Origin: Planctomycetota bacterium
GTDB lineage: Bacteria; Planctomycetota; Phycisphaerae; Sedimentisphaerales; Anaerohalosphaeraceae
Assembly: GCA_013349435.1 (NCBI GenBank)
Contig: DUZQ01000005.1
Span: 1 to 64,000, forward strand
DNA: 64,000 bases
Reading direction: 5' to 3'
The notes under the pieces were generated by a model. That model made no database searches, was not told the origin of the DNA, and saw only the letters and a list, made by a program, of their open reading frames with translations. Position numbers and translations under genes: made by a program. Below are positions 3,522-32,168 of this stretch, piece after piece (the stretch's first letter is position 1; each line of letters starts with the position of its first letter).

Positions 3522-5888
3522 CTAAGCTGGTTTTTCTGCGGTTGTTTGTTTTGTGGTGGCTTTTGGGTGAATTTCTTTAATTGCCTGTCGTTTTTTTTCA
3601 TCCGGGGGCTCTGCCTCGGGTGTCAAAAAAAAATTCTCATCGGCCGACTTTCCGGTTGCGGTATATCCTTCCACTACGCACAACAGACTCAGCAGAAAAC
3701 TGAGCATGCTCTCGGCACCCTGGTTGACGTTTACACCGCTCGGGGTCAGGCCGTCCGAACAGCCCTTTGTCCTGAAGTCATAGACCGGGACGTGTAAATC
3801 ATTTTCACCGAGGAACCAGTCGAAAGCCTTTTTCTGTATCTTCAGATATTCCCTTCGGCCGGTGGCATCAAATGCGGCCCTTAACATCATAACGGTGCTT
3901 GCCGCCTCGATTGGCTGCTGGTCGAAGACCGCTCTTTCCCCGCGGCGTTTGTACCATCCCTTACAGCCGACGAAACTGAAACTCTGACCGTCAAATGTAT
4001 TTTCCAGCAGGAATTCGGATGTTTTGTTCGCAATCTGGAGGTATTTTTCCTCACCCACGGTCAGTGCCGCCTTATAGAGTGCATCCGGAAGGGCCGCATT
4101 GTCGTAGGTCAGTTCATTTGCAAACCACTGCCAGTTAGGCGCCGAGCATTCTTTATATCTGGCGATAATATCATCAGCGGCCTGTGCCAAATATCGCTTT
4201 ATATCGCTTGCGCCGGGAAATTGCCTGAGGTACTGAGCCATTCCGAATATCGAATAAGCCTTGCCGCGGAGAGAAAGGCTGGGAACATGTTTTACGGATT
4301 TATCAAAACAGTCTTTTATCACCGGCAGATACCTCGGCAGCGGGGGTGAAGCCATAACGGCTCCGAAGGCCCATAATGTTCTTCCGAGCGCATCGTGCAC
4401 CGGTTCATTCGGCATCCATCGGCGGTCGAAGCCCATAAAGTTTCGTACCGTCCCATCGGCCTGCTGAGCGTGACAGACAAATGACAAATACGTCTCGAAC
4501 AGTCGCAGTGCCGCGGTTTCTGCATACTGTGCGCAATACTTTGTCATCGCAACCACCGCCCGAGAATTATCATCTGTACAGTAACCATGCTGCCTGTCCG
4601 GGATTGTGAACTTTGCGTGTTGCCACAAACCCGTGTCGTCGGTAAGCCTCTGCAAATGGTCCAGTGGCGGCTCCGGGACCTCAAGTATTGAAACAGCTTC
4701 ATCAACTGAAGCGATAGCCTTTGCAGGTGCACCGGCCGGCGGTCTTTTTGCGCTGAAAGTCTGCCAGTAGGTTTTACCTATCTGCGGCCAGGTCATTTTT
4801 CTTCCGTGTTCGTATGCCTTTCTCCTGAGCGAGTAGAACAATGACTCATTTGCTGCTACTTCTATTATAGATTCAGCCAGGTGAGCGGGGTCATTAAATC
4901 TGACGAGTCTTCCCCTTCCCCTTGCCAGGAGGTCCTGTGCGGCCCAGTAGGGCGTTGAGACAACCGCTTTTCCTGTTCCCACGGCGTAGGCAAGGGTTCC
5001 GCTGGTCATCTGCTCCCTGTTTAGATAAGGCGTAACGTAAATATCCGCTGCGCAAAGGAAATTCTGTAGTTCCTCGTTACTGACAAACCGGTTATGGAAA
5101 ATCACATGTTCTGTGAGGCCAAGATCTTTTACCATTCGATTCAGACTGAGCCTGTACGCCTCGCCTTCGTGGCGGGCGACTTCGGGGTGCGTTGTTCCCA
5201 ATATGATGTACAAAACAGTGGGGTCGGCTTTGACTATTTCGGGCATCGCTTTTAGCATCATCTCGATACCTTTGCTTCTGCTCAACAGGCCGAATGTGAG
5301 GATAGTCCTTCGGCCGTCTATTCCGAACTTGTGTTTGTAATAGCTGCTGTCAACAAAGGGCAAATCCGGCATCCCGTGCGGTATAAGGTCCACTTTTTTG
5401 GAAGTTACCGAGTATATATCCCTGAGCATCTTTACGGCGCGTTTGTTCATAACGATGATTTTGCTTGAAGCTTCGCAGACAGCTACCATAGCCCTGTAAT
5501 AGGGAGTCTGCGGTTCATCGAGTACGGTATGTAATGTTGTAATTACGGGTGCGTTTACCCTTCGCAGCAACAGGTTCAGATGAGAACCGGCATCGCCCCC
5601 GAAAATGCCGAATTCGTGCTGAACGGATATGAAGTCCACATGACTGAAGTTTATATAATCTGCAGCGGAGACGTAGTCGTTCTTGACATTTTGTCGTATC
5701 TCAAACTTGACGGGATTTGCATACTGGCAGGGACTTCCCGCCTGCATCGCAACAACCAGCGGCTCAAAGTCTTTTCCGGCCACTGTGCTGACGCTTTTGA
5801 CCAGGTCTGACGTGAAGGTAGCGATGCCGCATCTTCTCGGAGGAAAGGACGAAATAAATGCAACCTTCCTGGCCGAAGTTTTTGCCAT
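3522..5888 (-). CDS. GT4 glycosyltransferase fused to a helical C-terminal domain
   Basis: 788 residues in two parts. Residues 1 to about 380 form a GT-B glycosyltransferase of family 4: an N-terminal PPRRCGIATFTSDL donor/acceptor loop, HDxH-like HVDFISVQHEFGIFGG, TFGLLSRSKGIEMML, and the C-terminal TSGTLAYAVGTGKAVVSTPY region. Residues about 400-740 are alpha-helical with the motif DDNSRAVVAM and repeated aromatic/Trp segments, resembling an (alpha/alpha) toroid as in glycoside hydrolases. Such fusions occur in mannose/cell-surface glycan loci. The acceptor is unknown. The tail is basic and low-complexity. It is monocistronic with 500 bp of noncoding DNA upstream. Confidence 0.8.
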   Translation of the reverse strand: MAKTSARKVAFISSFPPRRCGIATFTSDLVKSVSTVAGKDFEPLVVAMQAGSPCQYANPVKFEIRQNVKNDYVSAADYINFSHVDFISVQHEFGIFGGDAGSHLNLLLRRVNAPVITTLHTVLDEPQTPYYRAMVAVCEASSKIIVMNKRAVKMLRDIYSVTSKKVDLIPHGMPDLPFVDSSYYKHKFGIDGRRTILTFGLLSRSKGIEMMLKAMPEIVKADPTVLYIILGTTHPEVARHEGEAYRLSLNRMVKDLGLTEHVIFHNRFVSNEELQNFLCAADIYVTPYLNREQMTSGTLAYAVGTGKAVVSTPYWAAQDLLARGRGRLVRFNDPAHLAESIIEVAANESLFYSLRRKAYEHGRKMTWPQIGKTYWQTFSAKRPPAGAPAKAIASVDEAVSILEVPEPPLDHLQRLTDDTGLWQHAKFTIPDRQHGYCTDDNSRAVVAMTKYCAQYAETAALRLFETYLSFVCHAQQADGTVRNFMGFDRRWMPNEPVHDALGRTLWAFGAVMASPPLPRYLPVIKDCFDKSVKHVPSLSLRGKAYSIFGMAQYLRQFPGASDIKRYLAQAADDIIARYKECSAPNWQWFANELTYDNAALPDALYKAALTVGEEKYLQIANKTSEFLLENTFDGQSFSFVGCKGWYKRRGERAVFDQQPIEAASTVMMLRAAFDATGRREYLKIQKKAFDWFLGENDLHVPVYDFRTKGCSDGLTPSGVNVNQGAESMLSFLLSLLCVVEGYTATGKSADENFFLTPEAEPPDEKKRQAIKEIHPKATTKQTTAEKPA

Positions 5889-6324
5889 ATTTTGCCTCCC
5901 TGCCGTTAATTAGAAAAGCATTAATCAGAAGCAGAGATATTTTATGCCTGATGTTACAGGCTGTCAAGCGAAATTTATATTTTTCCGCGTTAAAGCCAAG
6001 AAAAGGGTATTGTGTCAATTTGTGATACGAAGAACCAAACAGAATATTGTTGCGCACACAAATATACGACAAAAAATATGGCTATACTAACAACATCTGG
6101 TATTTTTTTCATACAAAAGAAAGGTTTGTTCCTGATGGTTGACTTTTTTAGAGGGTGGTTTTTATGGCCCTTTCAGGCTTTTTATGGGGTTGACGTTGGC
6201 CCTGGGTTTTTACCCTGTGTTATTGTTTTTCAACTTGTAATACTCATCAGGAGAGATGCGGTTATTGGTCATTGGCAGCGGAGCAGGCGTGCGGATAAGG
6301 TTACGAATGGTTTAAAACACGTTC

Positions 6325-6353
6325 TTGCATACTCTGCCGGAAAATGTTAGACT
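6325..6353 (+). promoter_or_regulatory. Candidate sigma-70 promoter of asd-truA
   Basis: TTGCAT (6325-6330), a 17-bp spacer, then TAGACT (6348-6353), 60 bp before the asd start. TAAGGAG (6397-6403) is its ribosome binding site. The rest of 5889-6324 holds no gene. It includes a GGCCCTTTCAGGC fragment near 6168 resembling the palindromes at 40.1 kb. Confidence 0.5.
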
Positions 6354-6413
6354 AACCAGCCTTAACACACTCTATATCGTTTTTTATAAAGCAAAGTAAG
6401 GAGTTTTATTTAA

Positions 6414-7415
6414 ATGGGCAAAAATGTAGCTATAGCAGGTGTTACCGGCGCGGTCGGACAGGAGTTTCTTAAAATTCTGTCCGAGAGGGATTTTCCTATT
6501 GATTCACTGCGTGTCTTGGCGAGCCAGCGTTCTAAAGGCAAGAAGATCGAGTTTAAGGGCAAAGAATATACGGTCGAGGTTCTGAGTAATGACAGCTTCG
6601 ATAATATCGATATCGCTTTGTTTTCCGCAGGTGCCGGGCGCAGCAAGGAATTCGCCCCTGCTGCGGTCGAAGCCGGGGCGGTCGTTGTAGATAACTCCTC
6701 GGCGTTCAGAATGGACCCTCAAGTGCCTCTGGTTGTCCCGGAGATAAACCCGGAGGCCATAGGCCAACACAAGGGGATAATCGCAAATCCCAACTGCTCG
6801 ACAATAATAGGTATTGTACCGGTCTGGCCGCTGCACAAGGCCAATCCGGTAAAGCGGATGGTGGTAAGCACCTATCAGGCCGCCAGCGGGGCCGGTATGG
6901 CTGCGATGCTGGAGCTTGAGCAGCAGGCAAGGGAAATTTTAGACGGCAAAGAGCCGACCTGTAACGTACTTCAATATCAGCTTGCGTTTAACGTATTCAG
7001 TCACAACTCAGCACTTGACAAAGATGGTTACAATCTCGAAGAGGTCAAGATGGTCAAGGAGACCAGAAAAATCTTCAACTGTCCTGATATTGCCATCACG
7101 TGCACCTGCATACGTGTACCCGTTCTTCGTGCTCATTGTGAGAGTATAAATCTTGAGTTCACCGACCCGATTACCCCACAGCAGGTAACGGAGCTTTTGA
7201 GCATGTCTCCCGGTGTAAGTGTAATTGACGACCGAGCCAATAACCGCTTTCCTATGCCTATCGATGCGGCGGGCAAAGACGATTGTTTTGTCGGCCGAAT
7301 CCGGCAGGATTTATCCATTCCTGATGAGCGTGGGATAAATTTCTGGGTCGCCGGCGACCAGCTCCGAAAAGGAGCGGCGCTTAACGCGGTCCAGATCGCC
7401 GAAAAGCTCCTTTGA
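6414..7415 (+). CDS. asd: Aspartate-semialdehyde dehydrogenase
   Basis: 333 residues. It reduces aspartyl-4-phosphate to aspartate semialdehyde with NADPH, the branch step to lysine/diaminopimelate, threonine and methionine. The N-terminal Rossmann motif is VAIAGVTGAVGQEFL. The catalytic Cys lies in ANPNCSTI (C128) and the catalytic His in RVPVLRAHCESI. Length is normal for the family. The start is ATG with a strong upstream AAGGAG. It is followed after 10 bp by truA on the same strand. Confidence 0.95.
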   Translation: MGKNVAIAGVTGAVGQEFLKILSERDFPIDSLRVLASQRSKGKKIEFKGKEYTVEVLSNDSFDNIDIALFSAGAGRSKEFAPAAVEAGAVVVDNSSAFRMDPQVPLVVPEINPEAIGQHKGIIANPNCSTIIGIVPVWPLHKANPVKRMVVSTYQAASGAGMAAMLELEQQAREILDGKEPTCNVLQYQLAFNVFSHNSALDKDGYNLEEVKMVKETRKIFNCPDIAITCTCIRVPVLRAHCESINLEFTDPITPQQVTELLSMSPGVSVIDDRANNRFPMPIDAAGKDDCFVGRIRQDLSIPDERGINFWVAGDQLRKGAALNAVQIAEKLL

Positions 7416-7425
7416 TGCAGGCACG

Positions 7426-8166
7426 ATGGCTGTGCGTAATATAAAACTTACCGTTCATTATGACGGCAGTAATTATCACGGCTGGCAGGTCCAACCGGAC
7501 CATTTGACCGTGCAGGCGGAGATTACCGGCGCGATTGCCAGGCTCACGGGCAAGGATGTCATTGTCAACGGCGCAAGTCGTACAGACGCCGGGGTGAGTG
7601 CTCTGGGCCAGGTTGCCAATGTCAGAATTGACACGCCCATTCCGACGGAAAACTTTGTAAAGGCCCTTACCGAGATTCTTCCAAATGATATTGCAGTTAC
7701 CGAAGCCGTTGATGTGCCCTATGAATTTGACGCTATAACCTCGGCTAAGCATAAATTATACCGCTATAGTATTTATACCGGCCCTGTCCGGCCGGTTCTG
7801 GACATCAGGCACTGCTGGCACCTTCCGAGAAAGCTCGACGCCGACCGTATGGATAGAGGGGCAAAACTGCTTGTCGGCACAAAGGATTTTAAGTCTTTTG
7901 CTTCCGCTGCCGACAAACGCCAAAGCTCTGTAAGGACCGTTACCCGGTGTGATGTAAAAACCGAAGGCGAATGGATATATATTGCTGTCGAAGCGGACGG
8001 CTTTTTGTATAATATGGTGCGTAACATTGTAGGAACACTTGTCGAGATTGGCCGTGGGCGCTGGAGAGCTGAGAGGATAACCGAGATTCTTGAAGCAAGG
8101 GATCGCACTGCAGCAGGACCGATTGCACCGGCAGCGGGCCTTTGTCTTATACAAATTGAATACTGA
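7426..8166 (+). CDS. truA: tRNA pseudouridine(38-40) synthase TruA
   Basis: 246 residues. It isomerises uridines 38-40 of the tRNA anticodon arm. The catalytic Asp sits in SRTDAGVSA (D54). Also diagnostic are HYDGSNYHGWQ at the N terminus, HKLYRYSIYTG, FKSFAS and GFLYNMVRNIVGTLVEIGRG. It lies 10 bp downstream of asd and is probably cotranscribed with it. There is nothing unusual. Confidence 0.95.
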   Translation: MAVRNIKLTVHYDGSNYHGWQVQPDHLTVQAEITGAIARLTGKDVIVNGASRTDAGVSALGQVANVRIDTPIPTENFVKALTEILPNDIAVTEAVDVPYEFDAITSAKHKLYRYSIYTGPVRPVLDIRHCWHLPRKLDADRMDRGAKLLVGTKDFKSFASAADKRQSSVRTVTRCDVKTEGEWIYIAVEADGFLYNMVRNIVGTLVEIGRGRWRAERITEILEARDRTAAGPIAPAAGLCLIQIEY

Positions 8167-8241
8167 AGCCTCAGGGAGTTAAAAAGAAAATATTCTTAGC
8201 CAAAGATAAATTGAAGAAAAAAAACTCTGTGGCAAGATAAT

Positions 8242-9423
8242 ATGAGAATTGTTCACATAATAACCCGGCTCATACTCGGCGGCGCGCAAGAGAACACGCT
8301 GATTACCTGCAAGCTCTTAGCTGAGCGGGGCCATGATGTAACGCTTATAACAGGGCCTGCCCTTGGTCCGGAAGGAGCGCTTTTTCAGCAGGCCTTGAGC
8401 GAAAATTACAGAGTTGTCGTGATTAACAAGATGCGTCGAGCGATACACCCGCTTTATGATGCGATAAGTTATCTGCAAATCAAAATGTACTTGAAGCGGA
8501 TACAGCCGGACATTGTCCACACTCACTCGGCCAAGGCGGGCATATTGGGCCGATACGCCGCCCACAGCCTGAAGGGCAAACCGGGCGGCAAAGGCCGAAA
8601 CGTCCCCCGTGTTGTTCACACCATCCACGGCCTGGCGTTTCATCCTTATCAAAGTGATTGGCTGAACAAGTTTTACATTGCCATCGAAAAGGCGGCCGCT
8701 CACAAGACCGATGCCTTCATATCCGTTGCCGATGCGATGACTGAAAAGGCCGTTGCCGCTGGTCTCGGAAAAACTGAAGATTTCACCACTGCCTACTCCG
8801 CCATTGATGAAGCCGATTTCCTAAGCTCCCCAGACCCGGAGGAGATAAGAAGCTTTCGGCGGAAGTACGGGATAGGCCGGCAGGCGATTGTTCTTGTTAC
8901 TATTGGTCGTCTTTTTGAACTGAAAGGACACGAGTATATAATCGAGTCCGCCCGAAGACTGGCACCGAAGTATGAAAATCTGGTATGGCTTTTTGTCGGC
9001 GACGGCAAATTGGCCGGCCAAATCAAATCCGACATCCACTTAGCCAACCTCGGTTACAAATTCAGATTCACAGGCCTCCTTGGCCCCGAACAGATACCAC
9101 TCGCTATACACGCCTCGGATATACTCGTACACTGCTCGCTACGTGAAGGTCTGGCCCGCGTGCTGCCCCAGGCGATGCTTTGCGCTAAACCCGTTGTCAG
9201 CTTCGATATTGACGGGGCAAAAGAGGTTGTAAGCAGGAAAACGGGTTTCCTAGTCGAACCTGAAAATATTGAACAGTTGACGCAGGCATGTGAACAACTG
9301 GTAACAAATCCTGAGTTGAGGATTAGGCTGGGCCAGTCGGGCAGGGAGTTTGTCAAGGAACAATTCGCCCCGGAGACAATGGTCGACACCATTGAACAAG
9401 TCTATCAAAAACTGACAAAGTAA
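8242..9423 (+). CDS. GT4 family glycosyltransferase
   Basis: 393 residues, GT-B fold. The N-terminal domain starts MRIVHIITRLILGGAQENTL, the glycine-rich acceptor loop usual in exopolysaccharide/LPS-type GT4 enzymes. The C-terminal domain has VTIGRLFELKGHEYIIE and the donor-binding segment LREGLARVLPQAMLCAKPVV. There is no membrane segment, so it is probably peripheral at the cytoplasmic face. The sugar and acceptor are not inferable. It lies 75 bp after truA, and a SAM methyltransferase follows. Confidence 0.88.
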   Translation: MRIVHIITRLILGGAQENTLITCKLLAERGHDVTLITGPALGPEGALFQQALSENYRVVVINKMRRAIHPLYDAISYLQIKMYLKRIQPDIVHTHSAKAGILGRYAAHSLKGKPGGKGRNVPRVVHTIHGLAFHPYQSDWLNKFYIAIEKAAAHKTDAFISVADAMTEKAVAAGLGKTEDFTTAYSAIDEADFLSSPDPEEIRSFRRKYGIGRQAIVLVTIGRLFELKGHEYIIESARRLAPKYENLVWLFVGDGKLAGQIKSDIHLANLGYKFRFTGLLGPEQIPLAIHASDILVHCSLREGLARVLPQAMLCAKPVVSFDIDGAKEVVSRKTGFLVEPENIEQLTQACEQLVTNPELRIRLGQSGREFVKEQFAPETMVDTIEQVYQKLTK

Positions 9424-23175: not shown

Positions 23176-24009
23176 TTACTGGTTTTCAGATGGCTGGGCC
23201 TTTAAGATTTCCAGAAAAGCCGGGTGTGTTTTTTTGCCCGCTGCAAGGATGTTGTATTCCCGGCCTGTGTAATTTTCCGGGTCGGCAGGAAAGACCTTGT
23301 TTCCGGCGAGATCGGTCATAATACCATCGGCGTTGGCGATTAACAGTGCGCCTGCGGCGATATCCCACAGCTTTGCATCTATTGCGATGGCGCCGAGCAA
23401 AGCGCCCCTGGCAACATAGGCAAAGTGAAGCGAGCCGCTTCCAAGAGCACGAAATTTTGTCCGGCGCATTATTTCATTAACACCTGCTGCGTGTTCCGGT
23501 TTGAAATGCGTGTCAATACCGAAGGCGGCAAATTCGTTTATATCCTCGCCGCTTACGGTTATTCTCGAAGCATTAAGCTGGGCGTCGGTATCCTTTGCAG
23601 CGGTGTACATAGACTCGGTTGCCGGTTCAAAGATTACCGCTGCGACAGGGTGTCCCTGGTATAGTGCCGCGACAGCGACGGTGAAGAAAAGCAGGCCGTG
23701 CGCGTAATTACTGCTGCCGTCGATCGGGTCGATAATCCACCAGACAGGCTCCGACGACCTCGGCGGCTGTTTGAGCATCTGGTCGCCGGGGCCTTCTTCA
23801 GCTATAAAACCATGGTCGGGATATGTTTCCTTGATGCGATTTACAATCAAATCCTGGCAGATGCGGTCCGCATTTGTGACAATTTGGCGGTTTTTCTTTA
23901 TCGAGGTTTTTACATACTTTATTTCTTCCATTGCTCGCTGGCCTGCAAGGCGTGCGGCAACAACCGCAACCTCCAACATTCGACTGATTTCAGTATGTTC
24001 CAGTGGCAT
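23176..24009 (-). CDS. Inositol-monophosphatase family protein
   Basis: 277 residues. The Mg-dependent phosphatase motifs are present: FIAEEGPGD (metal-binding Glu), WWIIDPIDGSSNYAHG (DPxDGT-like, with Ser in place of Thr) and WDIAAGALLIANADG. The substrate could be inositol phosphate, fructose bisphosphate or a nucleotide bisphosphate. A second family member at 27,047 looks like CysQ, so this one is less likely to be the PAP phosphatase. Confidence 0.87.
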   Translation of the reverse strand: MPLEHTEISRMLEVAVVAARLAGQRAMEEIKYVKTSIKKNRQIVTNADRICQDLIVNRIKETYPDHGFIAEEGPGDQMLKQPPRSSEPVWWIIDPIDGSSNYAHGLLFFTVAVAALYQGHPVAAVIFEPATESMYTAAKDTDAQLNASRITVSGEDINEFAAFGIDTHFKPEHAAGVNEIMRRTKFRALGSGSLHFAYVARGALLGAIAIDAKLWDIAAGALLIANADGIMTDLAGNKVFPADPENYTGREYNILAAGKKTHPAFLEILKAQPSENQ

Positions 24010-25959: not shown

Positions 25960-26595
25960 CTATTGAGTTTGGGTGATTATTTTTTGGGCGTATGACCGCC
26001 AGTCTGTAGCGCCGTTGTCGAGGAAATAATCAAAGGATTTGTCGCCGGCTAACCGACCTAAGACGGCTTTTCGTTCGGCAGGGTCGGCGACCTGATCTAT
26101 GATATGTTTTCTTATAGATTCAAGCTCGATAACAAATCGGCCGTGGTCATCGGTGAACTGGTCCTGGAGTTTTTTTCTTAAGTGTCCTGCATAGGCGGGG
26201 CAGTTGCCATCGGTTCCGACAGCGATTTGCAACGGGCCGCGCTTGACGACTGCGGGAACGAAGAAATCGCACAGGTCCGGCTGGTCAACCACGTTACACA
26301 GCACATCAAGCTCCTGGCAGTCTTTGTAGATTCTGCGATTCAGTTCGAGGTCGTTTGTCGCAGCTATAGCGAGAACAGCCTCTGCGAGGTAGTCCTTTGA
26401 ATAAGCACTTATGACAACCTCTACATTCGGCAACTTGCAGGATTTCTCGAAGACGGGATCCACTTTTTTGGCGATGACGATTACCCTTGCACCGGCTTCG
26501 TGCAGGGAGCTTACCTTTCGGGCGGCGACTTGGCCTGCACCAATGACAACGACGCGTTTACCGGCGAGTTCGAGATATATGGGGTACTTAGCCAT
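25960..26595 (-). CDS. Precorrin-2 dehydrogenase / sirohydrochlorin ferrochelatase
   Basis: 211 residues, a Met8p/CysG N-terminal-type bifunctional enzyme making siroheme from precorrin-2. The NAD-binding motif KRVVVIGAGQVAARKVSSL is followed by AIAATNDLELNRRIYKDCQELDVLCNVVDQPDLCDFFVPAVVKRGPLQIAV, with the catalytic Asp in NVVDQPD. The SUMT methylase half of CysG is absent. Siroheme is the cofactor of sulfite reductase, which fits the neighbouring sulfate-activation cluster. Confidence 0.92.
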   Translation of the reverse strand: MAKYPIYLELAGKRVVVIGAGQVAARKVSSLHEAGARVIVIAKKVDPVFEKSCKLPNVEVVISAYSKDYLAEAVLAIAATNDLELNRRIYKDCQELDVLCNVVDQPDLCDFFVPAVVKRGPLQIAVGTDGNCPAYAGHLRKKLQDQFTDDHGRFVIELESIRKHIIDQVADPAERKAVLGRLAGDKSFDYFLDNGATDWRSYAQKIITQTQ

Positions 26596-27046: not shown

Positions 27047-27832
27047 TTATGGTTGTGGTTCGATGCCGAGCATTTCCGTGAGTGGGCCGAACAATCGAGG
27101 TCCTGCGGCGACGAGCCCTTTAAGACGTGTTTGACGGCGGTTGAAGATAAGACAAGCCCCCTGCGTGTCGCTCACCTTGCCACCGGCGGCGGTAACCAAA
27201 AAGGTGCCGGCAGCAATATCCCACTCGTTCTTAGGAACGAGGGTAAAAGTGGCATCGGCCAAACCGGCGGCGACGAGGGCAAGTTTATAAGCTACCGAGC
27301 CGACAGGCACAACAGTAAACTCACTATCGGCAAAACGCTCCCACAGCCCCCTACCAACTTCAGTTCGGCTGGCTAAAATCCTTGCCCCGGCAAGAGCGGA
27401 ATGATTGCTTGTGGTTACAGGTCTGCCGTTGAAGGTAACGCCCGTTCGGCGTGAGCCGAGGAAAAGCCGGTCCGCGGCGGGATTGCAGATACCAGCAGCG
27501 GTTACGTGCCCATCAACCGCTAATGCGACGGATATACACCATTGGTCTATCCCCTCGATAAACTCGCGTGTGCCGTCTAACGGGTCAACTATCCATACAC
27601 GTCTTTTTTTCAGTCGTCCCAGGTCGTCTGCGGTTTCTTCGGAAAGCCAGCCGTCATCGGCATCGACAAGTGTCTCTCGCAGGAGCCGGTCAAGCTCAAT
27701 ATCAGCGGCGGTAACCGGATCACCTCCCGTTTTAAGCTCGGCCCTGATGCGACCGCTTGTGAAGGTGCCCACCACAGTCCGTGCCAGTTCGAGTGCGTGC
27801 TCAATCTTTGCAAGGTCTTTATCCGATGACAT
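27047..27832 (-). CDS. cysQ: 3'(2'),5'-bisphosphate nucleotidase CysQ-like
   Basis: 261 residues of the inositol-monophosphatase superfamily. Motifs are WLSEETADD, VWIVDPLDGTREFIEGI and NEWDIAAGTFLVTAAGG. CysQ hydrolyses PAP (and PAPS) formed in sulfate assimilation. Assignment to CysQ rests mainly on position: it is the last gene of the run cysC-cysD-cysN-cysQ, 40 bp after cysN. The alternative is a generic family phosphatase. Confidence 0.85.
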   Translation of the reverse strand: MSSDKDLAKIEHALELARTVVGTFTSGRIRAELKTGGDPVTAADIELDRLLRETLVDADDGWLSEETADDLGRLKKRRVWIVDPLDGTREFIEGIDQWCISVALAVDGHVTAAGICNPAADRLFLGSRRTGVTFNGRPVTTSNHSALAGARILASRTEVGRGLWERFADSEFTVVPVGSVAYKLALVAAGLADATFTLVPKNEWDIAAGTFLVTAAGGKVSDTQGACLIFNRRQTRLKGLVAAGPRLFGPLTEMLGIEPQP

Positions 27833-27872: not shown

Positions 27873-29696
27873 TTAAGGCTTGAAAATAATGCCCTTATCC
27901 TGCAACATCATTTTTACCTCCTCGACGGTATCATTCAGGTCCCAGCCCTCGGATACAAGTAAATCATAGTTGACATCTGTAAGATTTGGTCCGACCCACA
28001 CAACCTCAATCGAGTCGGTATCGACGGCGGCACTTATGATGTCGAGGTCGCTTTGCGTGAGGGCTATCGCGGTTACTACGAGAATCGTTCCGGCGTCCAG
28101 CATTATGTTTGCAACCTCCGCAAGTCTTCTTAAGTGCTCGTCTCTGTTTTCTGCGGTTCCTGCCACCTTTATATCCGCATCGACACCGTACAGGATGTTT
28201 CCGATTCCCATAAAGTACACAATCTTGCCGTCGGCGAAGAGCCTTGCTTCTACGGCTTTGGCGATTGTCTTTTTGCCCACGTCTTTTCGGCCCGTAACGA
28301 GGACGAGAGTGGGTTTTTGGTTGTACCTTTCGGCCCTGTCCTCGCGCGATATGGTACTGGTCTGCCACTTGTAGTTCCTCGTCATCACATAATCGCGCAT
28401 CCACAACTGTGTATCTGTAAGGGCTTCTGTGATAATTCCACCGCCGCAAATCTCGTAATCATCGACTATTACGAACCGGCCGGTGGCGGCTATCTCATCG
28501 GCGCAGTCGAAGGCAACAGCGCGGTGTACCGACAAAATACACTCGGCAACATCATGGTATTCGATACAGTTCTTTGCTTCTGTAGAGCTTAAGTCCGATG
28601 CGTTAATAACTCTTTTGACCTCATCAAGCTCGACGGGCTGTTTTGCTGTGCCAACCTTAATCAGGTAGGTCTTGTCTTTTATCATGGGTTTAGCGCCCAT
28701 CCAGAAGAGACTTGCCCGGATACGGCTGGTTACCCGGGGTTTGGTTTGTTTTTGCCTTGCGGCTATTTCGCCTCGTGTAACATAGATTTGCCTGTCAAGG
28801 GTAAAAGCACAGGGCTGACCTGCCTGCGCCGAGGTTTGGGGGGGCTGGTTGAAGCCCTCGATGCTCTTTATTGTGCTGGTTTTGCCGGACGGATAAAAGA
28901 CGACTTCGTCTCCAGCGGCAATTCGGCCTGATTCAATAGTGCCTGCGACAATACGGCGTTTATCACCGGCCCTGGTGAATTTATATACGTCCTGAACGGG
29001 CATTCTAAACGGTTTATCGACAGGCTGAGGTTCCTTTTCAAATGCATCAAGAGCCTGCAAAACCGTTCTGCCGGTGTACCATCCGAGCCTCTCGCTGCCG
29101 ACGGCGATGTTGTCTCCCGCCTTTCCGCTTACCGGGACAAAGTCGCAGGTTATGCCTATCTCGGCAAGAAACCTTGTGTACTCAGCCATAATACGGTCAA
29201 ATGTGTCTTTGCTGTATTCGACCAGGTCCATCTTGCTGACGAGCACTACAATTTGTCTGATACCTAACATCGAAAGCATATATCCATGTCTTCGAGAGTT
29301 TTCCTGCACTCCTTCGACTGCATCTATCACAACAAGTGCAGCTTCGGCGCGGGAGGCGCCCGTAACCATATTGCGCAGAAAGTCTATATGTCCGGGAGCA
29401 TCAATAATAATGTAATCGCGTGCAGAGGTACTGAAAAAAACGCGGGCCGAATCAATCGTAATTCCCTGAGACTGCTCGTCTTTTAGGGCATCGAGCAGGA
29501 AAGCGTATTCGAAGGGCTTCGAATTTCGCCGGCACGTCTGCCTGATATGCTCAAGTTTTCCTTTCGGCAGTGAACCGGTGTCGGCCAGGAGTCTGCCGAT
29601 AATCGTACTTTTGCCGTGGTCAACGTGGCCGGCAATAACAATGTTCATCCGTTCTGTTGTTTGTTCGTCCGCCATTTTTATATCAGGGGTACTCAC
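27873..29696 (-). CDS. cysN: Sulfate adenylyltransferase subunit 1 with a degenerate APS-kinase-like domain
   Basis: 607 residues. Residues ~15-440 are the CysN GTPase that powers Cys[10 protein letters not shown] (23-31), [16 protein letters not shown] in place of NKMD, and the EF-Tu-like beta-barrel domains. Residues ~445-607 resemble CysC but are decayed. The P-loop reads GRKDVGKKT (CysC: GLSGSGKST) and the DGDN motif reads GIGN, although [21 protein letters not shown] is kept. A separate intact cysC lies two genes upstream, so the fused domain is probably structural or regulatory. It sits between cysD and cysQ. Confidence 0.92.
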
Positions 29697-29748: not shown

Positions 29749-30630
29749 CTACATATAACCGTCTCTGCGAAGGGTTTCAAGACCGCCTCCGTCTTCGGCG
29801 TCCTGAGCCCTGCCGGACCGCTCGGCGATATTTGCAAGTTTGCCGCTTTTGAGTTCTTCGATTATCTCTTTGACTGTGGACGCATCGGATTCGATGGGAT
29901 TCGTGCACGGCCGGCAACCAAGCGAACGGTATCTTTTCCCTTCGCCCTGATTATAATAAAGCGAAACCGTTGGAATCTTCTCTCGCTCGATGTATTCCCA
30001 GATATTCAGTTCCGTCCAGTCCAACAGAGGATGAATGCGGACGTGAGTTCCGGGAGCAAAGTCGGTCTTGTACTGATTCCAGAACTCCGGCGGCTGTTCG
30101 GCAATATCCCAGTCGTTTTGCCTGTCACGTGGCGAGAAATATCTTTCCTTCGACCTTGTGCCTTCCTCGTCGGCCCTGACTCCGACAATTACGCCCGTGA
30201 ACGGCTCTGTATTCGAATCAAGCTGGTACTTTTTTTCCGAATGATTGTACCGGTAGCGAGGCCATCTGCCGCTGAGGGTATGCTCAAGGGTTTCTGTCTT
30301 GAGGATACGACAGCACTCGATACGACCGGCATTGCCGTCGGGAAATGTCTGCTTGTTGTTCAACGCCTCGGTGTTAATCCCGTAAATCATATTCAGGTGC
30401 CATTTTTGAGTAAGCCTGTCCCGATATTCTATCATTTCGGGTATTTTGTATCCGGTGTCGATATGAACGAGAGGGAACGGCACATGTCCGATGAAAGCCT
30501 TCCTTGCAAGCCAGAGCAGGACCGTGCTGTCTTTGCCTATGGACCAGAGCATACACAGTTGCTTGAAATTGGCGTATGCCTCCCGCAGGATGTGTACGCT
30601 TATACTTTCCAACTGTTCCAGGTGGTCCAT
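29749..30630 (-). CDS. cysD: Sulfate adenylyltransferase subunit 2
   Basis: 293 residues. The ATP-pyrophosphatase-type subunit forms APS from ATP and sulfate in complex with CysN. Diagnostic are [19 protein letters not shown] (PP-loop), [40 protein letters not shown] and [17 protein letters not shown]. It lies 52 bp upstream of cysN and 10 bp downstream of cysC. Confidence 0.95.
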
Positions 30631-30640
30631 TGTAGTTCCC

Positions 30641-31165
30641 TCAAAGATATTTTCCTATAAAATCGATAATCACAGAAGCCGATTCATCCACACTCTGTTC
30701 GTCTGTATTGACGATTATATCGGGTTTTTCCGGCTCCTCGTATGGGTCGTCCAGGCCGGTGAAGTTTTTGATTTGCCCGGCCCTGGCCCTGGTGTACAAT
30801 CCCTTGACATCCCGCTTCTCACAAACATCCAACGGCGCGTGTACATACACCTCAATGAAGTTTTTGCATACGTCTCTGACGAATCGCCGGGCGTTTCTGT
30901 AGGGCGAAATAAAGGAAGCCACCACAATTACACCGTGTTTTTCGAGCATCGAGGCCATAAATCCCACTCTTTTGATATGTTCATCTCTCTGCTGCCTTGT
31001 AAAACCCGTCGCAGGAAAGAAGCCTCGCAGGATGTCCCCGTCGAGTTTTTCGACACTGAGGCCTTTTTTACTTATAAATTCATATATCCTGTCGGCCAGG
31101 GTGGTCTTTCCGGAACCTGACAGGCCCGTCAGCCACAAAACAAACGCTTTATCGGGTTCTTTCAC
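30641..31165 (-). CDS. cysC: Adenylyl-sulfate kinase
   Basis: 174 residues from a GTG at 31165, preceded by GAGGGAAG. It phosphorylates APS to PAPS. Intact motifs are [17 protein letters not shown] (P-loop), [28 protein letters not shown] and [23 protein letters not shown]. The ORF track extends to 31339, but the extra 58 residues are Cys/His/Lys-rich, overlap the aminotransferase gene and have no counterpart in the family, so the shorter start is preferred. It provides the kinase activity that the CysN-fused copy appears to lack. Confidence 0.92.
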
Positions 31166-31325
31166 TTCAGTCTTCCCTCGGACCGATAATTTGAGGCGGT
31201 TTCCCAAAACCTTTGCCGTACGGTTTTGGACATATTTGCATCGGCATATATTTAAGGCATGGTGAGTCTTTTTGCAAGCATGTGTTGGGATATAATCGGT
31301 ATATTTGCCAAAGCCCTGTTCTGAT

Positions 31326-32168
31326 TCAACTTTGAGCAACGAATTCTTTGAATGCGTCTATCAATAATTTTGTGTATCTGCCCGGCCTGCCCGTTCCGAT
31401 TCCGGCACCATCAAACCGTACAACCGGCACAATATCCAATGTTGTTACAGCTATAAAAAGCTCATCGGCCTTTTGTGCTTCGGCCGGCGTTATCGCCTGC
31501 TCCAAAACATCCAGCCCCACTTGTGAAGTAAGGCCCATTACGAAACGCCGGGTTATTGAAGCGAGGATTTCCGAACCAAGGGGTCTTGTTACCAGTCTGC
31601 CGCCGGCGAATATCGCAAAAAAGGCCGAGCCGGCCGCCTCCGTAATAAAACCGTCCTCGTTTACAAGTATCGCCTCTGCGCAGCCACGATGCTCGGCTTC
31701 CATCCTTGCAAGCACGTTCGGCAATAAATTGAGCGTTTTAATGTCGCATCTTTTCCAGCGCCAGTCGGGATAGGTGCAGACCGAAATGCCCGTCTCTTTC
31801 TGCTCGCTGCTGTCGGGTAATTCGGTAACCGTCAGGAAGAAGTTCGGCTTCAAATCCCTGTCGCCCGCGTGGCTTCTGAGGTGTGAACCTCTGGTAACAT
31901 GAAAGTAAATCTTTGCATTTGCAATCCCGGCGGTCCGGTATGCCTGTTCGACCCTCCTGCGGATTTGGTCGATATCCACTCCCGTTATACTTATCTCGTT
32001 GAGGCTCCTGACCAATCTTGTAAGGTGCTCCTGGAGCGCGAATATCCTGCCGTCATAACTCCGCACAACCTCGTAAACACCGTCGCCGAAATATGTGCCT
32101 CTGTCCAGGTAAACAGGGTCAAGTTCGCTCAAGGGGACAATTTTGTCTTGTATCATCGCTATCTGCAT
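31326..32168 (-). CDS. Class IV PLP aminotransferase, D-amino-acid aminotransferase-like
   Basis: 280 residues. The fold-type IV signature RCDIKTLNLLPNVLARMEA contains the PLP lysine and is closer to D-alanine aminotransferases than to IlvE or PabC. YLDRGTYFGDGVYEVVRSYDG and ILVNEDGFITEAAGSAFFAI also match. The probable reaction is transamination of D-alanine/D-glutamate for peptidoglycan, or a branched-chain substrate. It lies upstream of cysC on the same strand and 24 bp after a PEGA lipoprotein gene. The link to sulfur genes is not explained. Confidence 0.86.
   Translation of the reverse strand: MQIAMIQDKIVPLSELDPVYLDRGTYFGDGVYEVVRSYDGRIFALQEHLTRLVRSLNEISITGVDIDQIRRRVEQAYRTAGIANAKIYFHVTRGSHLRSHAGDRDLKPNFFLTVTELPDSSEQKETGISVCTYPDWRWKRCDIKTLNLLPNVLARMEAEHRGCAEAILVNEDGFITEAAGSAFFAIFAGGRLVTRPLGSEILASITRRFVMGLTSQVGLDVLEQAITPAEAQKADELFIAVTTLDIVPVVRFDGAGIGTGRPGRYTKLLIDAFKEFVAQS

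Follow-up and report, generated by a model that had tools for sequence, protein, structure and literature searches.

A widespread CysN branch with a degenerate APS-kinase domain, possibly retained as a non-catalytic interaction module of the GTP-driven ATP sulfurylase

This study places the cysN gene of a Planctomycetota contig, analysed within a stretch of 64,000 nucleotides (hereafter the window), in a widespread and unnamed branch of CysN, in which the fused C-terminal APS-kinase domain has lost its active site, and we infer, tentatively, that the dead domain is retained as a working, non-catalytic interaction module of CysDN. In broader terms, the domain has probably been repurposed as a non-catalytic interaction or regulatory part and is not junk; repurposing is preferred over decay because a conserved, non-catalytic domain sits in an operon together with an intact cysC. 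The features of the operon and of the fusion protein are collected in Table 1.

Table 1. Positions of the operon genes and of the CysN fusion protein's parts, numbered along the window.
Feature	Positions	Strand	Basis
cysQ-like PAP phosphatase / inositol monophosphatase-family gene, last of the operon	27047-27832	minus	PF00459
cysN with fused degenerate APS-kinase domain	27873-29696	minus	607 aa from GTG at 29696
CysN GTPase core, EF-1A-like	28425-29648	minus	PF00009, PF03144, PF22594; [14 protein letters not shown] and SKMD motifs
Linker, residues 440-461	28314-28379	minus	family-invariant W444, R454, Q460
Degenerate APS-kinase domain, residues 462-607	27876-28313	minus	PF01583 partial match; AF2 model, predicted APS-kinase fold
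Dead P-loop GRKDVGKKT, residues 469-477	28266-28292	minus	Lys at Ser/Thr position
MGIGN replacing LDGDN, residues 496-500	28197-28211	minus	alignment; Asp roles from PMC4373884
GVDADI loop, residues 504-509	28170-28187	minus	G504, D506, A507, D508 near-invariant in group A
Helix, residues 515-534	28095-28154	minus	E520, R523, R524, E527 retained in groups A, B and C
Deletion site of the ~30-residue lid, after about residue 570	27984-27989	minus	alignment
C-terminal tail KGIIFKP	27876-27896	minus	typical of group A
cysD, ATP sulfurylase catalytic subunit	29749-30630	minus	NF003587, 350 bits, cut-off 195
Intact separate cysC (APS kinase)	30641-31339	minus	TIGR00455, 212 bits, cut-off 138.7; full-length PDB matches

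The fused kinase domain has lost its active site and its lid

Residues ~14-424 of the window protein are CysN, with 345.0 bits against the TIGR02034 membership cut-off of 336.1, and the partner gene expected of a CysN, cysD, adjoins it. Against the bifunctional CysNC model NF004035, the full protein scored 467.9 bits, below the cut-off of 715. The C-terminal domain matched PF01583 at residues 462-560 (45.9 bits, cut-off 21.1), covering profile positions 2-98 of 152 only, and scored 48.2 bits against the APS-kinase equivalog TIGR00455, for which the cut-off is 138.7. A first-pass annotation of this DNA had described ~160 C-terminal residues as aligning with APS kinase; the match to APS kinase is real, but it covers no more than roughly the first two thirds of the profile.

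The degenerate domains were sorted into group A, the window's own, found in many phyla, group B, confined to one planctomycete family, and group C, comprising relatives from the family and order to which the window itself belongs. In an alignment of 96 degenerate domains (85 of group A and 11 of groups B and C) with 59 canonical ones, the P-loop GxxxxGK[ST] was intact in all 59 canonical domains (59/59), in none of the group A (0/85) or group B (0/5) domains, and in 2/6 of group C. In roughly one quarter to one third of group A domains, Arg replaces the Walker Lys, and Asp, Glu or Asn often takes the place of the Gly before it, so that GKK, DRK, GRK, DKK, ERK and NRK all occur at these positions. 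The LDGDN-x-R positions read D, G, D (Q in two) and R in canonical kinases, and in group A they are mostly G, I, G/A and L. The FISPYR motif is likewise replaced, with the Pro and the following conserved Arg changed in the degenerate domains, and the lid, canonically DPKGLYxxARxGxIxxFTGxxxPYE, has gaps at ~30 positions, the KGLY and FTG motifs among them. In M. tuberculosis CysC, the functional residues at these sites are the P-loop Lys and Ser, Asp478, which holds the Mg water, and Asp480, the probable base, while Arg483 and Arg497 contact the phosphosulfate and Lys562 and Arg559 lie in the lid region (PMC4373884).

The first-pass reading of a CysN fused to a kinase domain without its active site is therefore borne out, with Lys for Ser/Thr in the P-loop and MGIGN for LDGDN. 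Because the P-loop, LDGDN and FISPYR residues are changed and the lid is deleted, APS-kinase activity and canonical ATP binding are very unlikely for the window protein. Catalysis on another substrate through relocated residues would draw on the strongly conserved charged residues D506, D508, E520, H521, R523, R524 and E527, but the Walker A Ser/Thr is gone in groups A and B, the Mg-binding Asp in group A, and the lid as well, and we regard such an activity as highly improbable.

The intact APS kinase lies in the same operon

The operon order is cysC-cysD-cysN-cysQ-like, with all four genes on the minus strand. The intact cysC that the first-pass annotation had placed 0.9 kb upstream of cysN was found there, at 0.94 kb, with cysD between them; its product matches PF01583 across the full profile (183 bits) and has all the expected motifs ([18 protein letters not shown] and KGLY...FTGLDDPYE), and its true start is probably inside the open reading frame. 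The separate CysC of operons from Planctomycetota (the window's among them), Gemmatimonadota and some Spirochaetota is a distinct subtype, in which LDGDxLRxxFPxTGF replaces LDGDNxRxGLxxDLGF. The best NCBIfam match of the cysQ-like gene is to CysQ, TIGR01331, below the cut-off of that model, and its position is repeated in other Planctomycetota.

The degenerate fusions form one clade of wide distribution under purifying selection

Scanning GTDB genomes for the degenerate domain yielded 138 loci that encode it; judged by record title, the best 80 of these come from more than a dozen phyla, namely Planctomycetota, Calditrichota, Spirochaetota, Gemmatimonadota, Sumerlaeota, deltaproteobacterial lineages, Bacillota (including the isolate Clostridium yunnanense), Omnitrophota, Bacteroidota, Chlorobiota, Chloroflexota, Neomarinimicrobiota and others, with some risk attached to single phylum labels since many of the loci come from metagenome-assembled genomes. 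Within the phyla sampled, the A type is a minority trait: it occurs in 5/148 genomes (E <1e-60) of the phylum of G214, a deltaproteobacterial metagenome-assembled genome, in 8/121 of the phylum of G222 (Gemmatimonadota by title) and in 7/200 of that of G227 (Bacillota). These counts rest on draft genomes, and the sampling of group A was seeded by similarity to the window. Among the candidates scanned, no viral copies were found.

In the tree of the GTPase core, all degenerate fusions compared form one clade with support of 100/99, which adjoins four active CysNC fusions with support of only 88/77; the kinase-domain tree also joins the degenerate domains in one clade (100/99). Group A as used here is not strictly one clade, as the f30 sequences L008 and L009 are counted with it but branch apart. 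The simplest history suggested by these trees is that an ancestral CysNC lost the kinase once and that the degenerate form then diverged and spread.

For pairs with cores 80-94% identical, the dN/dS of the kinase domain was ~0.02-0.2, equal in range to that of the GTPase core, these values being rough as dS is high for some pairs, and the reading frame is unbroken by frameshift or stop in the window cysN and in close relatives. Since this purifying selection appears to have been long and even, the dead domain most likely has a function. A decaying vestige or a sequence error in this genome could be imagined from the nearby intact cysC, which would make the fused copy redundant; it is rejected, its probability being negligible, by the recurrence of the pattern at the 80 loci fetched, which come from over a dozen phyla, by the single clade in both trees, by the core-like dN/dS and by the unbroken reading frames. 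The relatives with an active fused kinase that the first-pass annotation would have taken as a sign of isolated decay or sequence error do exist, but only as an outgroup to the degenerate fusions, which are one clade under purifying selection.

The APS-kinase fold and a conserved helical face are retained

A PDB search with the full-length model returned mainly elongation factors, together with the CysN 1zun_B, and for this reason the degenerate domain was modelled and searched alone. The AF2 model of residues 441-607, built from 67 aligned sequences, reached a pLDDT of 87 and a pTM of 0.84, and its 50 best Foldseek matches in the PDB were all APS kinases or enzymes with an APS-kinase domain, with TM up to 0.83. 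The structure prediction that the first-pass annotation had proposed as a check thus points to retention of the fold, and the last ~147 residues are predicted to adopt that of APS kinase.

E483, F487, Y494, G504, D506, D508, E520, R523, R524, E527 and G536 are common to groups A, B and C, and in the alignment several of these vary in active kinases. The GVDADI loop has pLDDT <50 in both the full-length and the domain model despite its near-invariance in group A, and it may be a mobile functional loop, possibly ordered by a partner or ligand. From the alignment, we equate the helix at residues 515-534 with a portion of the M. tuberculosis CysC dimer face; in that enzyme, helices alpha2 and alpha3 make most of the dimer interface (PMC4373884 section 8). 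The C-terminal tails differ by group, being GIIF(K/R)P in A and YL(I/P)EYY-like in C.

The retained helix of the canonical dimer face could also be explained if the domain acts within CysDN only, as an oligomerisation or allosteric part that docks neither CysC nor CysH. Such a role has a precedent in the domain of yeast ATP sulfurylase, described as probably structural (PMC4220642) or as without defined function (PMC3779200), and it accounts for the persistence of the domain both with and without cysC. By itself, however, it leaves the group-specific tails and operon partners unexplained, and an unfused CysN in the same genome does without such a domain. We consider this purely structural role somewhat improbable in itself, and almost as likely as the interaction module.

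The unfused CysN belongs to a second sulfate-activation set on contig 37 of the window's genome (G000; locus L133), with genes at 3776-4735, 4759-5643, 5714-6955 and 6960-8243 of the plus strand, encoding in this order CysD, a predicted TSUP-type permease, the unfused CysN (413 aa) and an alkaline-phosphatase-superfamily-like protein; the permease and the phosphatase were assigned by eye.

Genome context differs among the groups

A survey of whether the fusions are accompanied by a second cysC, as the first-pass annotation had suggested, found a separate full APS kinase in 42/44 A-type genomes (one of the exceptions has a truncated fragment at a contig end), in 3/11 genomes whose degenerate fusions are all of B or C type and in 12/21 genomes with active CysNC (Fisher p ~5e-6 for A against B/C and ~3e-4 for A against active CysNC, without phylogenetic correction). 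The operon of group A is usually cysC-cysD-cysN*-cysQ or a variant, with cysC at 55/80 loci, many of which are truncated. In group C, all loci with a readable upstream flank have cysH-cysD-cysN*, in many cases with a sulfite/nitrite-reductase-like gene after it, and each operon CysH bears the iron-sulfur APS-reductase motif CC...CxxC...CGLH. Group B genomes have CysH with the same iron-sulfur motif, mostly outside the cysN operon, and A-type genomes have mostly CysD-type PF01507 matches only, by an estimate of ~33/41 in which the matches were not each classified by motif.

Since the presence and operon context of cysC and cysH split by group, group A looks tied to PAPS and groups B and C to APS reduction; the PAPS of group A is probably used for sulfation, with cysQ recycling PAP. 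Four genomes, G208, G212, G229 and G241, combine an A-type copy with a C-type one, the latter lying beside cysH, and these paralogues seem to be divided between sulfation and reduction. Pairs of degenerate CysN in a cysC operon (A-type) and in a cysH operon (C-type) are seen in L144 with L143, and among L171, L172 and L173.

Because the domain persists in genomes without CysC, neither docking of CysC nor sensing of PAPS can be its sole role. The scaffold for CysC put forward in the first-pass annotation fits group A, but as the role common to the whole family, a CysC-only scaffold or a PAPS sensor is weakened, most group B and C genomes having no separate APS kinase. Regulation of ATP sulfurylase by a domain that senses PAPS, APS or a nucleotide, of the kind found in Penicillium, has a known precedent in the APS-kinase-like domain that binds PAPS as an allosteric inhibitor (PMC3779200), and the invariant, low-confidence GVDADI loop could close over a ligand. 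However, the APS-contacting residues and the lid are missing, whereas the Penicillium domain still aligns lengthwise to canonical APS kinase, and most group B and C genomes retain the domain without a kinase that makes PAPS. Nucleotide sensing through the old ATP pocket, the other role first suggested, has lost ground with the variable P-loop Gly and Lys of group A and the loss of the entire lid, and a sensor of any of these ligands appears quite unlikely.

A proposed role of the domain in APS transfer

The interaction module is favoured because the groups differ in operon partner and tail. In the mechanism we propose, a CysNC fusion that was once active would have lost the active site and the lid of its kinase, a single ancestral event being the simplest assumption, and CysDN, the GTP-driven ATP sulfurylase, would then have kept the dead domain as a module for protein interaction. 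Through its retained helical face and its invariant GVDADI loop, the domain would keep CysDN assembled and/or bind the enzyme that uses APS next, which would be CysC in group A, to which the window belongs, and the APS reductase CysH in group C, and through this docking APS could be passed on and not lost by diffusion. Channelling of APS has precedent, as it is reported to have been shown for Rhodobacter sphaeroides, and a complex of ATP sulfurylase with APS reductase has been reported in vitro for onion (PMC4220642).

Several points keep this proposal tentative. The correlation between group and partner comprises few independent events (A, B and C) and may be explained by co-inheritance of the operon, and the cysH of group B is mostly outside the cysN operon. 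Conservation of the old dimer face could merely preserve the fold, and the unfused cysN with its own cysD in the same genome indicates that CysDN can probably work without the domain. A more specific version, in which the domain is a routing adaptor whose groups, each with its own C-terminal tail, dock different enzymes (CysC for sulfation, APS reductase for reduction), with paralogous CysDN in one cell channelling APS separately, is unlikely. In the genomes with both A-type and C-type copies, the channelling of APS to different fates is directly testable.

Comparison with other dead-domain enzymes of sulfate activation

The window cysN resembles bifunctional CysNC, such as that of Mycobacterium tuberculosis (NF004035), in domain order and operon context, but it lacks the kinase site and the lid, and PAPS synthesis must come from the separate cysC. 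Stand-alone CysN, e.g., Pseudomonas syringae 1zun_B, has a similar GTPase core without the C-terminal domain. The fungal ATP sulfurylases of Penicillium chrysogenum and yeast likewise bear a dead APS-kinase domain at the C-terminus of a sulfate-activating enzyme, which forms an allosteric PAPS site in Penicillium and is probably structural in yeast (PMC3779200, PMC4220642). The fungal domain is fused to a Sat-type ATP sulfurylase and that of the window to the CysN GTPase, therefore the fusions are independent; moreover, the Penicillium domain retains the lid region, whereas the window's does not. The Penicillium 1m8p/1i2d match the window's separate CysC with 119 bits over ~160 residues, and the direct sequence match of the window domain to the fungal domain is marginal (E ~0.5). 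Entamoeba histolytica EhAPSK and Thiobacillus denitrificans 3cr8 are the mirror image, with a dead sulfurylase part and a living kinase, and their dead sulfurylase-like domain is retained and influences activity or assembly (PMC13213808).

The degenerate family is thus the GTP-driven CysN counterpart of the fungal and the Entamoeba/Thiobacillus cases, with the lid removed as well; the open-access literature searched held no description of a CysN with a dead kinase domain. Sulfate activation thereby offers several independent natural cases of a retained dead domain, in which the reasons for retention can be compared. For many genes resembling bifunctional sulfate adenylyltransferase/adenylylsulfate kinase, the product is probably unable to make PAPS, and pathway predictions are affected by this wherever there is no cysC.

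Further features of the window locus

An in-frame ATG at 29675, 21 bases inside the open reading frame, gives a cysN product of 600 aa and seems the likelier start than the GTG, because conservation starts close to it. In the full-length model, part of the GTPase switch region (residues 77-83) also has pLDDT <50. The GTPase G4 motif (window 29226-29237, residues 154-157) is SKMD, whereas 101/108 compared proteins have NKMD; SKMD was otherwise seen only in L037. PF01507 matches in the window's genome comprise two cysD genes and one weak fragment. A siroheme-synthase N-terminal gene (PF13241, PF14824; window 25960-26595) lies near the operon, in a draft genome without a clear cysH, and a second inositol-monophosphatase-family gene (PF00459; window 23176-24009) lies near the cysQ-like gene.
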